DNA from: Halobacillus mangrovi
GTDB lineage: Bacteria > Bacillota > Bacilli > Bacillales > Halobacillaceae
Direction of reading: 5' to 3'
Length of the DNA stretch: 64,000 nt
Assembly: GCF_002097535.1 (NCBI RefSeq)
Contig: NZ_CP020772.1
Span: 558,001-622,000, forward strand
Positions 43,722 to 46,488 of this stretch are shown here, one piece after another (within the stretch, counting starts at the first letter, position 1; each line of letters opens with the position of its first letter). The translations under genes and the position numbers were made by a program. Below the pieces are notes generated by a model that worked only from the letters and a program-made list of their open reading frames with translations, was not told the origin of the DNA and did not search any database.

Positions 43722-44474
43722 TTAAAAATGTTTTTTCAGCCAACCACATGTAATGGTTTCTACTTCGTTTAGGTGCTCCATAAAGCTGTGTTGAGCACCT
43801 TTTATTATTTCTAGCTTCGAATTCTCTGGAAGCCATTTCATTCCCTTTTTGGTGAGCGGCATCAAAATTTTCTCTTCCCCTTGGTCACCATGAACAATCA
43901 GTGTCGGACATGTGATCTTAGATAAAAGTTGCTGTTGGTCACATTGTTCGAAATCCAATAACATTTGACGAGCAATTTTGAGTTCAGATCTATACGGGTC
44001 TTCAACTGGTAGAGTCAGTAGCCCCGTTGCCGAGAGCTCCTTCAATTGGGGTGGGCTAAACTCCTCAGTCCAGTCATAGCGAACGGGCCCAGTGCCCGCT
44101 CCTGTTAATAACAAAGTTTTAACATAGGAAGAGTTGTAGGCTTCTAGACAAACACGTGCTCCTAAACTATGACCATACAAAGCAATCTTCTCAAATCCAA
44201 GTCCTAAAGAGTAATTGATGGCAGCAGTTAAATCCATCACTTCACCAGATAGTGTGAGAGGACGATCCTCACTGTTGCCGCATCCACCAAAATCAAATCG
44301 CAAGACACTGTATCCCATCTGTTGGAATGTTGCCGCGAAGCGGTCAAACCTCCCATTGGAAGATCGATTGGAACGGAAGCCATGACACATGATCACCAAT
44401 TTTCCATTCGTCCCCTTTTGCAAAACCCCAGAAAGTCGTAATCCCGAATTATTATAGAACGAAATATCCTCCAT
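43722..44474 (-). CDS. Alpha/beta hydrolase
   Basis: The 250-residue protein has the oxyanion region VIMCHGFRSNRSS, the nucleophile elbow GHSLGAR near residue 105 and a C-terminal His in GAQHSFMEHLNEV. LRFDFGGCGNSEDRP is typical of peptidase-S9/esterase-like serine hydrolases. GAGGTGG precedes the ATG. It is divergent from the HTH/AtpD-like gene, with a 179-base intergenic region that carries two palindromes. Substrate unknown. Confidence 0.78.
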   Translation of the reverse strand: MEDISFYNNSGLRLSGVLQKGTNGKLVIMCHGFRSNRSSNGRFDRFAATFQQMGYSVLRFDFGGCGNSEDRPLTLSGEVMDLTAAINYSLGLGFEKIALYGHSLGARVCLEAYNSSYVKTLLLTGAGTGPVRYDWTEEFSPPQLKELSATGLLTLPVEDPYRSELKIARQMLLDFEQCDQQQLLSKITCPTLIVHGDQGEEKILMPLTKKGMKWLPENSKLEIIKGAQHSFMEHLNEVETITCGWLKKHF

Positions 44475-44567
44475 TATTTACCACCTCAGGTCATCCATTT
44501 ATTCCCAAATATTTTGGCTGTTATTTCTATCTTAACATGTAAAATTTGTTTTTTATTTTTACGTTTT

Positions 44568-44587
44568 AAAGTAAATTATTTTACTTT
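44568..44587. promoter_or_regulatory. Palindrome upstream of the HTH/AtpD-like gene
   Basis: AAAGTAAA and TTTACTTT form eight-base arms around TTAT, just before a possible -35 (TTTTGA, 44586-44591). It is a good candidate operator for the downstream XRE-type protein or for control of the divergent hydrolase. Confidence 0.5.
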
Positions 44588-44605
44588 TTGATGAAATTTA
44601 TATTG

Positions 44606-44635
44606 CTTTATAACGTAATAAAGATTACGATAAAG
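44606..44635. promoter_or_regulatory. Second operator-like inverted repeat over the -10 region
   Basis: CTTTATaaCGTAAT and ATTACGATAAAG are inverted around AAAG, with two extra bases in the left arm. It covers a possible -10 (TATAAC, 44609-44614) and ends seven bases before AGGAGG (44642-44647), a position suited to autorepression. Confidence 0.5.
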
Positions 44636-44653
44636 CGTAACAGGAGGTAAATC

Positions 44654-45694
44654 ATGGAACAACTACACTTAAATGTATCTTTGTTAAGAAGAAGAGTGCC
44701 TAATTTAACGAAAGCGGCCAAATCTGTAGGGTTAAGACCAGCGACAGTCTCCAACCTTTGTACAGGAAAAATTTCTGTAGGGAGGACAGAGGTGCGCACA
44801 TTAGTCGCCTTAGCCAATTTAGCTGGCTGCAGTCTGGATGAATTAATTATTCAAGGGGAGCGATATGAGATGATTGAAACGGGAATCAAGTCGATCGATT
44901 TATTTGCACCTTTAGCTAAAAACGGTACAGCTGGATTAGTAGCCAGGCCAGGGATGGGACAATTAGTTGTCCTGGCTGAGATTTTCCATCGATTGAAGAA
45001 CCATGGGTATAAGATTGTCTTATTGCATCCGGAAGGAGATCACCCTGAAGTCAATGATCTTAAAAAAGACCTTGATGTAATATGCTACACCGTTAAAGAA
45101 GCAGAAGAGGAAGTTCAGAAACTAGGAAAAGCAGAAGATGTCTTATTTATCGCAGATAGATCCTATGTAATTAAGGGAACCATCGTCAAGCTGCAAGAAA
45201 GTTGGAATGATCTGAAATCTGTCACCACATTTCTACTTGATCTTAAAGGGGAGGCTGTAGATGAAAACCTCCCTTATGGTCCACTAGAAACGCTTTGGCA
45301 TTTTGATAGCGACTTGGCAGCGAGAAGAATCTATCCTGCGATCCACCCGTTGCAATCAACCTCTACAGTATTGGAAGGAGCCAATCTAGAACAAAATCAT
45401 TTTTATATTCAGCAAAAGGCGAAGAAGCATCTACGCCGTTACAAGGAATTGCGTTCGATCGTTCAAGTTGGCGGGATGGATCCTCTATCATCCGCCGATC
45501 AACAGGTATACAAAAGAGGAGAACTCCTCGAAGCGTACCTAAGTCAGCCCTTTTATGTGGCAGAACCGTTCACTGGAGTAAAAGGTGAACACGTTCCTCT
45601 CGATCAAACCCTCATGGATACTCGGAAAATCCTTGACGGAGCAGAGGATCATAAGTTAGCCAAGGAGCTTATGTCTATAGGATCCCTTTTATAA
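44654..45694 (+). CDS. XRE-type HTH fused to a catalytically degenerate F1-ATPase beta-subunit (AtpD)-like domain
   Basis: The 346-residue protein has an XRE-like helix-turn-helix at about residues 5-66 (KAAKSVGLRPATVSNLCTGK). Residues 72-346 align by eye with ATP synthase beta. ETGIKSIDLFAPLAKNGTAG matches the segment before Walker A, and DVLFIAD matches Walker B. IYPAIHPLQSTSTVL, RRYKELRSIVQVGGMDPLS, FLSQPF-like YLSQPFYVAEPFTG, HVPLDQT and KILDGAEDH match the C-terminal half. The P-loop GGAGVGKT has become ARPGMGQL, the GERTREG catalytic Glu region is absent, and DELSEED has become DPLSSAD. It is therefore probably a non-hydrolysing regulator derived from AtpD. The beta-barrel N-domain of AtpD is replaced by the HTH. 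AGGAGG precedes the ATG. What it senses is unknown. Confidence 0.8.
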   Translation: MEQLHLNVSLLRRRVPNLTKAAKSVGLRPATVSNLCTGKISVGRTEVRTLVALANLAGCSLDELIIQGERYEMIETGIKSIDLFAPLAKNGTAGLVARPGMGQLVVLAEIFHRLKNHGYKIVLLHPEGDHPEVNDLKKDLDVICYTVKEAEEEVQKLGKAEDVLFIADRSYVIKGTIVKLQESWNDLKSVTTFLLDLKGEAVDENLPYGPLETLWHFDSDLAARRIYPAIHPLQSTSTVLEGANLEQNHFYIQQKAKKHLRRYKELRSIVQVGGMDPLSSADQQVYKRGELLEAYLSQPFYVAEPFTGVKGEHVPLDQTLMDTRKILDGAEDHKLAKELMSIGSLL

Positions 45695-46278: not shown

Positions 46279-46317
46279 AATAAAAAAGAGGCCGCAGCGA
46301 TAACTGCGGTCCTCTCC
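46279..46317 (-). terminator. Terminator of the type I toxin mRNA
   Basis: On the minus strand, AGAGGACCGCAG pairs with CTGCGGCCTCT (one bulge) around TTATCG, followed by six T. It is placed to end the toxin transcript after a long 3' region. Confidence 0.75.
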
Positions 46318-46390
46318 GATAGCGGTCCTCAGGGATCGGCTACTCACAGAGGAATAGACCTCTCCCGTTGGCAGACAGGAGGTCTATTTT
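46318..46390 (+). ncRNA. Candidate antitoxin RNA, 3' portion (antisense to toxin 3' end)
   Basis: A strong plus-strand terminator (AATAGACCTC / GAGGTCTATT, then T-run, 46350-46391) overlaps the end of the minus-strand toxin gene. The transcript it ends would be antisense to the toxin stop and 3' untranslated region, as in TxpA/RatA-type loci. Its 5' end is uncertain; no convincing promoter was assigned, so the left boundary is nominal. Confidence 0.5.
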
Positions 46391-46488
46391 TTATTGGTCA
46401 ATTTAATGACCAACGCAAGCAGAGCAATAAGGAAAGTTCCGGACGAAAACAGAACCATGAACACCTCATAGATACTCAAAAAAGGCAT
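46384..46488 (-). CDS. Putative holin-like type I toxin (TxpA/Hol_Tox-like)
   Basis: The 34-residue peptide (or 31 if started at the TTG at 46479) has a short polar start containing SIYEVFMVLF, one hydrophobic membrane segment (about residues 17-28) and a basic end (KLTNKK). This matches the short holin-like toxin family, whose members typically begin MxxYExxM. AAAGGGGGTG lies just upstream; its tight spacing to the ATG favours the TTG. The ribosome-binding site is enclosed in a hairpin, a terminator lies downstream, and an antisense terminator overlaps the 3' end. It probably depolarises the membrane when the antitoxin RNA is lost. Confidence 0.72.
   Translation of the reverse strand: MPFLSIYEVFMVLFSSGTFLIALLALVIKLTNKK

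Follow-up and report, generated by a model that had tools for sequence, protein, structure and literature searches.

The XRE/F1-beta fusion gene and its locus

The window, by which we mean the whole stretch of 64,000 nucleotides of Halobacillus mangrovi DNA that was analysed, contains a gene that joins a Cro/C1-type (XRE) helix-turn-helix (HTH) domain to a domain resembling the beta subunit of F1 ATP synthase (AtpD) (Table 1). The first-pass annotation had described this gene as a fusion of the two, and this description holds, with one open reading frame in relatives and both folds predicted. Structure prediction compared with AtpD gave the F1-beta core, in which the beta-like part takes the fold of the AtpD nucleotide-binding and C-terminal domains. 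By both sequence and model the C-terminal part of the protein is F1 beta, and no shikimate-kinase-like domain is present. The proposed replacement of the AtpD beta-barrel was likewise borne out, in that the HTH stands in the barrel's place in both the sequence and the predicted model. The two parts are not separate genes in relatives, where they share one frame, and the single copy found in two frames (genome G034) is taken to be broken.

The HTH was predicted with a pLDDT of 86, and its model resembles XRE proteins in the PDB (Foldseek probability 1.00, with a weak E value of 0.009). When the HTH alone was compared with PDB sequences, a single-sequence query gave no match and a profile gave only weak matches to HigA (best E value 0.12). 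The NCBIfam atpD model (TIGR01039) scores the protein at 134.1 bits, which is below its cut-off of 462.85. The gene (602654 in contig numbering) also lies outside the atp operon, as the matches to the organism's own atpA and atpD are at 834926 and 837513 (G000:C1).

Two further features of the surroundings were noted. An amidase gene (PF01425; 40942-42339, + strand) lies a few genes upstream of the regulator; five Halobacillus loci (L004-L008) also have an amidase homologue nearby, and in L035 one comes immediately after the regulator. A hydrophobic open reading frame of 34 amino acids (46384-46488, - strand) adjoins repeat-like GC-rich sequence at about 46304-46345, and presumably resembles the small holin-like peptides of Bacilli.

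Table 1. Features of the fusion gene and its upstream region (positions in the window).
Feature	Position	Strand	Basis or remark
Divergent alpha/beta hydrolase gene	43722..44474	-	Shares the intergenic region with the operators
Putative operator 1, TTACGTTTTAAAGTAA	44559..44574	+	Palindrome and matrix
Putative operator 2, one mismatch, TTACTTTTTGATGAAA	44581..44596	+	Palindrome and matrix
Putative operator 3, TTGCTTTATAACGTAA	44603..44618	+	TTGCTT at 44603-44608, likely -35
Putative operator 4, TTACGATAAAGCGTAA	44625..44640	+	TACGAT at 44626-44631, likely -10; 17-bp spacer
Ribosome-binding site AGGAGGT	44642..44648	+	Sequence
XRE-HTH/F1-beta-like fusion protein, 346 aa	44654..45694	+	Single open reading frame, also in relatives
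Cro/C1 (XRE) HTH domain, N-terminal, residues 1-68	44654..44857	+	Segment GLRPATVSNLCTGK near-invariant
F1-beta-like core, residues 67-346 (nucleotide-binding fold and C-terminal helical domain)	44852..45691	+	
Degenerate P-loop ARPGMGQLV, residues 97-105 (Lys to Gln103, Thr to Leu104, Arg98)	44942..44968	+	Alignment
Walker B end, D168-R169, kept	45155..45160	+	D in 309/314, R 0.98
Y227, counterpart of AtpD Y341	45332..45334	+	Alignment
Former DELSEED position, now DPLSSAD, residues 276-282	45479..45499	+	Alignment
F306, counterpart of AtpD F420	45569..45571	+	Alignment

A conserved operator array covers the gene's own promoter

Comparing upstream regions side by side revealed 16-bp palindromes of the form TTAC-N8-GTAA that occur in series in front of the gene, and the window carries four of them whose starts are exactly 22 bp apart. 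Among 86 non-identical upstream regions, the motif TTRC-N8-GTAA (at most one mismatch) is present on average 2.98 times per 130 bp, compared with 0.10 for the same motif at -300 to -170 (a density about 28-fold lower) and 0.16 in shuffled sequences. When gaps of 2 to 19 nucleotides between TTRC and GTAA were tried on these regions, a gap of 8 accounted for 186 of the 204 counted pairs, and successive sites are spaced by 21-23 bp in 155 of 182 pairs. A position matrix, built from most of the 98 promoters that it was then used to count, finds three sites in 54 of them, four in 18, two in 23 and fewer in 3.

In a held-out test, 70 named loci served to train a matrix that was then applied to 31 others, 29 of which have at most 70% protein identity to any training locus (the remaining two are at 90 and 94%). 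Two or more sites lie at the start of the gene in 24 of these 31 loci, or in 25 when the head of the operon is counted, and 30 loci have one or more; in the remaining locus, L163, the array stands ahead of fmdA, a gene discussed below. Only 2 of 1380 control windows held two or more matrix sites. The full collection of 182 loci reduces to 159 distinct ones, of which 156 were gene-called after the fragments L180, L181 and L313 had been removed, and 141 of these 156 have at least two sites in front of the gene. Among the remaining 15, another gene heads the operon in L073, L301, L163 and L164, six have a single site (one of them at a contig end), and L351 and L358 have none; L173 is an HTH-less copy with an array at its own start, L311 lacks the HTH end, and L312 is cut by a contig end.

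The sites are superimposed on a promoter. A TTG[CA]NN element separated by 17 bp from TA[CT]NNT lies upstream of the gene in 88 of 98 cases, with both hexamers inside two sites 22 bp apart in 77 of the 98. The -35/-10 pair of the window is absent from a generic promoter scan, which uses a stricter consensus. In three-site blocks the middle site, which usually overlies the -35, has TTGC in place of TTAC (76% G), as expected if polymerase and regulator use the same bases. We conclude that a conserved operator is strongly supported by these comparisons. The operator array is a new finding here, and its position on the gene's own promoter, in the stretch that the first-pass annotation had put forward for a DNA-binding test (44560-44645), lends support to the earlier proposal that the protein is a regulator.

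Candidate targets beyond the gene itself

A strict pattern for the array was searched in 397 genomes, where it gave 41 matches against 4 for a reversed control. It occurs in 29 of the 88 genomes that carry the gene, 28 of them at the gene's own promoter, and in 3 of the 309 others (G065, G108 and G122, taken as chance), suggesting that the array is nearly exclusive to the fusion gene. This pattern misses 59 of the 88 gene-bearing genomes, and therefore many other targets would be missed too. An exact pair of sites gave 20 matches in 15 of the 44 genomes of the family (control, 7), with 19 at the gene's own promoter in 14 genomes and one in G006, which is without the gene. Single palindromes showed no enrichment over control. 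In the organism's own genome, the array with up to two mismatches gave 14 matches (control, 16), 6 of which are the gene's own promoter, and so no second array stands above control.

Likewise, 20 contexts of single sites from five related genomes yielded no conserved shared target. L234 and L248 have a common site within a coding region, which we take to be that of a Ppx-like gene; L244 has the common neighbouring gene with its site in a different place. Across 1.49 Mb of loci, strong-site pairs away from the regulator start were found only in L163, L173 and L277, in a scan where the pairs of L073 and L164 fall below threshold and from which L301 was absent. In G230 an M3 peptidase gene has the array as its promoter region, and an M29 aminopeptidase gene comes next on that strand. 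In G076 (L173:3013-3822) it precedes an HTH-less beta-like paralogue, an extra copy beside the full one, that was retrieved by its protein and not by its operator. That a copy lacking the HTH also has the array argues for action in trans. This paralogue is flanked by a dicarboxylate symporter gene on one side and, about 160 bp after it, by a gene for an alanine symporter.

The neighbourhood is not conserved in the best 80 named loci, where the largest neighbour cluster reaches 16 of 80 within 8 kb, and synteny in the wider locus set is mostly clade-specific. Since most of the 156 gene-called loci have no recognised operon partner, the only visible target in most loci is the gene itself. This would be odd for a metabolite regulator, and it allows for a further role outside transcription.

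Where partners are present, two classes of enzymes recur. First, 6 of the 156 loci have a homologue of the acetamidase/formamidase FmdA, always in a slot from -2 to +1, and none occurs in 1160 other slots within six genes (p = 0.0005, a post hoc value uncorrected for relatedness; three of these six genes went into the profile, and the slots were chosen after inspection). L163 and L164 are close kin, and the others represent different genera. An array before fmdA, which heads an apparent operon with the regulator as its last gene, is present in L163 and L164 (Shouchella-like), in L073 (Paenibacillus solani) and in L301 (Brevibacillus-like), with one strong and one weaker site each in L164 and L301. 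In L074 and L304 the array precedes the regulator instead, and fmdA comes after the regulator, the two genes overlapping at their ends. Second, alpha/beta hydrolases make up 9 of 145 adjacent genes versus 2 of 127 at positions +-3 (73 representatives, Pfam), a weak enrichment (one-sided p = 0.049, two-sided 0.066). This comparison replaces a first hydrolase profile that was biased, having been built from adjacent genes. Twenty neighbours are tight and on the same strand (at most 60 bp away), although one of these, in L182, is the second part of a broken copy. They include 7 alpha/beta hydrolases, three of them from one genus, and 4 FmdA genes. In the window, 84 bp separate the start codon of the divergent hydrolase gene from operator 1, and this gene is possibly a second target. 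With amide and ester hydrolases and peptidases as partners, a link to the breakdown of small molecules is hinted at.

ATPase active-site residues are lost and two probable adenine-pocket aromatics are kept

Residues were counted in 314 homologues aligned with the organism's own AtpD (one of 315 fetched was excluded by length). The Walker-A Lys is lost in 311 of them; 309 have Gln at its position and 3 still have Lys. Leu mostly replaces the Thr, and a P-loop Gly has become Arg (R98) in 305. The first-pass view of the site as dead is sustained, with the Walker-A pattern GxxxxGK[ST] absent and DELSEED not kept. The positions of the catalytic Glu and the neighbouring Arg align to a mixture of E/D/N and to H/Y/A, in a loop where the alignment is unsure. 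AtpD stretches 199-207 (after the catalytic Glu), 221-233 (around NEPPGARMR) and 254-277 (after Walker B) have no counterpart. The three homologues that do have a P-loop Lys (P0253, P0263 and P0273, with GLGKL or GVGKL) are possibly less decayed relatives.

Other residues persist. The Walker-B Asp is kept in 309 of 314 homologues, and the positions of AtpD Y341 and F420 are both aromatic in 293. We take these two to be the adenine-stacking Tyr and the Phe of the adenine pocket, by analogy with Tyr345 and Phe424 of bovine F1. With active-site residues lost and the pocket aromatics kept, ATP hydrolysis by the beta-like domain appears very unlikely, and an adenine-type ligand is still possible. 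The aromatics could also have been kept for folding only.

Distribution and origin of the family

Overlapping genome samples were searched at four taxonomic levels. The full-length gene is found in 17 of 44 genomes of the family (one further genome, G034, has it in two frames and another, G029, has a C-terminal piece). Matches occur in 88 of 397 genomes of the order (E value at most 1e-35), 19 of 398 of the class and 3 of 398 of the phylum. Bacillus subtilis 168 is not known to carry the gene. We regard the family as real and old; 86 of the 88 matches in the order are full-length, and the P-loop Gln is near-universal. Two genomes of the order sample, G269 and G283, carry remnants with stops.

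In a tree of 22 family members, 28 of 30 fetched AtpD sequences, and the organism's own AtpA and FliI, the fusion proteins group in a single clade next to AtpD (100/100) and away from AtpA and FliI. The branch leading to this clade has a length of 8.5, which is very long, bootstrap values were unsettled, and the attachment point inside AtpD is untrustworthy. A phage origin was rejected: no relative turned up in viral contigs, where none of 19 pattern stretches was confirmed. Of 19 matching records in a phage collection, the ten listed are at most 29.8% identical and are without the HTH region, and so we regard these matches as AtpD-like. A plasmid origin was rejected as well, for among the ten listed of 110 plasmid records, the only full-length relative is on a Paenibacillus megaplasmid. 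One homologue, P0174 of Paenibacillus tarimensis (516 aa), has an additional PF09350 domain and the source name DnaJ family domain-containing; it is either a real fusion or an annotation error.

Proposed mechanism and alternatives

We favor the reading that the fusion protein is a one-component autorepressor, probably ligand-responsive, with a dead F1 beta subunit as its sensor, much as in BzdR, and we assign it a probability of roughly 0.6. It starts from features that are read from the sequences (the fusion, the predicted fold, the lost active-site residues, the operator on the promoter and the operon partners), and from these we infer DNA binding itself, its cooperativity, repression as its sign, and a ligand. 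Dimers of the XRE domain would bind side by side on the TTAC-N8-GTAA palindromes about 22 bp apart, for which the regular spacing suggests cooperativity. Because the array covers the -35 and -10 of the gene's own sigma-A-type promoter, bound protein should shut off that promoter. XRE proteins can also activate. On the protein side, an F1 beta subunit would have lost its barrel, the phosphate-binding Lys, and the catalytic and gamma-side loops, and kept its fold and adenine-pocket aromatics, so as to serve as a sensor and oligomerisation domain. This domain would most likely bind, but not hydrolyse, an adenine-containing ligand or a related small molecule, thereby loosening or tightening the protein on the array. 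The kept pocket residues are compatible with an adenine-containing ligand, and we speculate that it is possibly a CoA ester. In several lineages the same switch would also drive acetamidase/formamidase or alpha/beta-hydrolase genes in the operon, and rarely others. An improbable elaboration is that the protein forms an F1-like ring, wherein six subunits give three HTH dimers that match the commonest arrangement of three operators about 22 bp apart. Promoter DNA would then bind alongside this pseudo-F1 ring or wrap about it, and an adenine-containing ligand occupying the former catalytic pockets would determine the state of the ring.

A doubtful alternative is that the protein is mainly an effector whose beta-like domain acts on another protein, such as free F1 alpha or another ring ATPase, with the HTH serving only for autorepression. 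Such a role would fit the absence of a second array above control in the organism's own genome and of a common single-site target in the five related genomes, the mostly clade-specific neighbours, and the placement of the HTH-less copy of L173 under the same operator. However, array-led acetamidase/formamidase operons occur in separate genera, a peptidase gene lies under an array in G230, and the gamma-side stretches of AtpD are without counterpart.

We consider it highly improbable that the protein senses ATP synthase assembly or adenylate charge and controls energy genes, even with its position beside AtpD in the tree and its retention of the adenine-pocket aromatics and Walker-B Asp. Loss of the P-loop Lys and the apparent lack of conservation at the catalytic Glu and Arg positions make it unlikely that the protein could tell ATP from ADP. 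Array pairs elsewhere are rare, and scanning the 12.5 kb around the organism's own atp operon with the matrix found no strong site (best score 9.9, compared with 12.7-21.7 at the gene's own four sites), by which we rejected the operon as a target and found no link of the fusion protein to the F1 complex.

Finally, a decaying and non-functional AtpD duplicate with a chance HTH is hardly credible, for the patchy spread in the order and the broken or partial copies in G269, G283, G034 and G029 are outweighed by conservation that already contradicts it: a near-invariant HTH, full-length matches in all but two of the 88 genomes, operators that persist in relatives with about 50% identity, and dN far below dS (0.027 versus 0.58) in the one close pair computed, L005 and L006.

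Relation to known regulators and significance

A ligand-responsive autorepressor of this kind would have its nearest parallel in the BzdR subfamily, to which BoxR belongs and whose BzdR hosts are of a different phylum from the hosts of the fusion protein. BzdR combines an XRE HTH with a shikimate-kinase-like P-loop domain and senses benzoyl-CoA (PMC3602430). Both proteins would pair an XRE domain with an enzyme-derived, catalytically silent P-loop sensor, the silence being predicted here from sequence; they differ in that the sensor-like part derives from F1 beta rather than shikimate kinase, and in that Walker A is lost in the fusion protein and kept in BzdR (PMC3602430). From AtpD (TIGR01039) the protein retains the fold of residues 67-346, about 30% identity, the Walker-B Asp and the adenine-pocket aromatics, and it differs from AtpD in having no barrel, no Walker-A Lys/Thr and no DELSEED, in its added HTH, and in its location outside the atp operon. 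P22 c2, the 434 repressor and CylR2, which are of the Cro/CI type, have a similar HTH fold and bind palindromic operators in series over their own promoters. Compared with such autoregulators, the fusion protein has an F1-beta core, and its operators mostly come in 2-4 copies about every 22 bp. MocR (a GntR-type HTH with an aminotransferase-like domain) is also an enzyme turned sensor, with unrelated domains.

The absence of any described regulator with this architecture had been remarked on at first pass, and we too found no published description of an XRE/F1-beta protein in the open-licence papers searched. We know of no other regulator that uses a rotary-ATPase catalytic subunit as its sensor, and this one would be the first. 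Among the listed homologues, several carry the source name 'F-type H+-transporting ATPase subunit beta' or 'ATP synthase subunit B', and with such names a dead regulator may be taken for a part of ATP synthase in automatic metabolic models. The change in the P-loop would give a clear example of how an enzyme becomes a sensor, and the operator and operon partners make its function directly testable.
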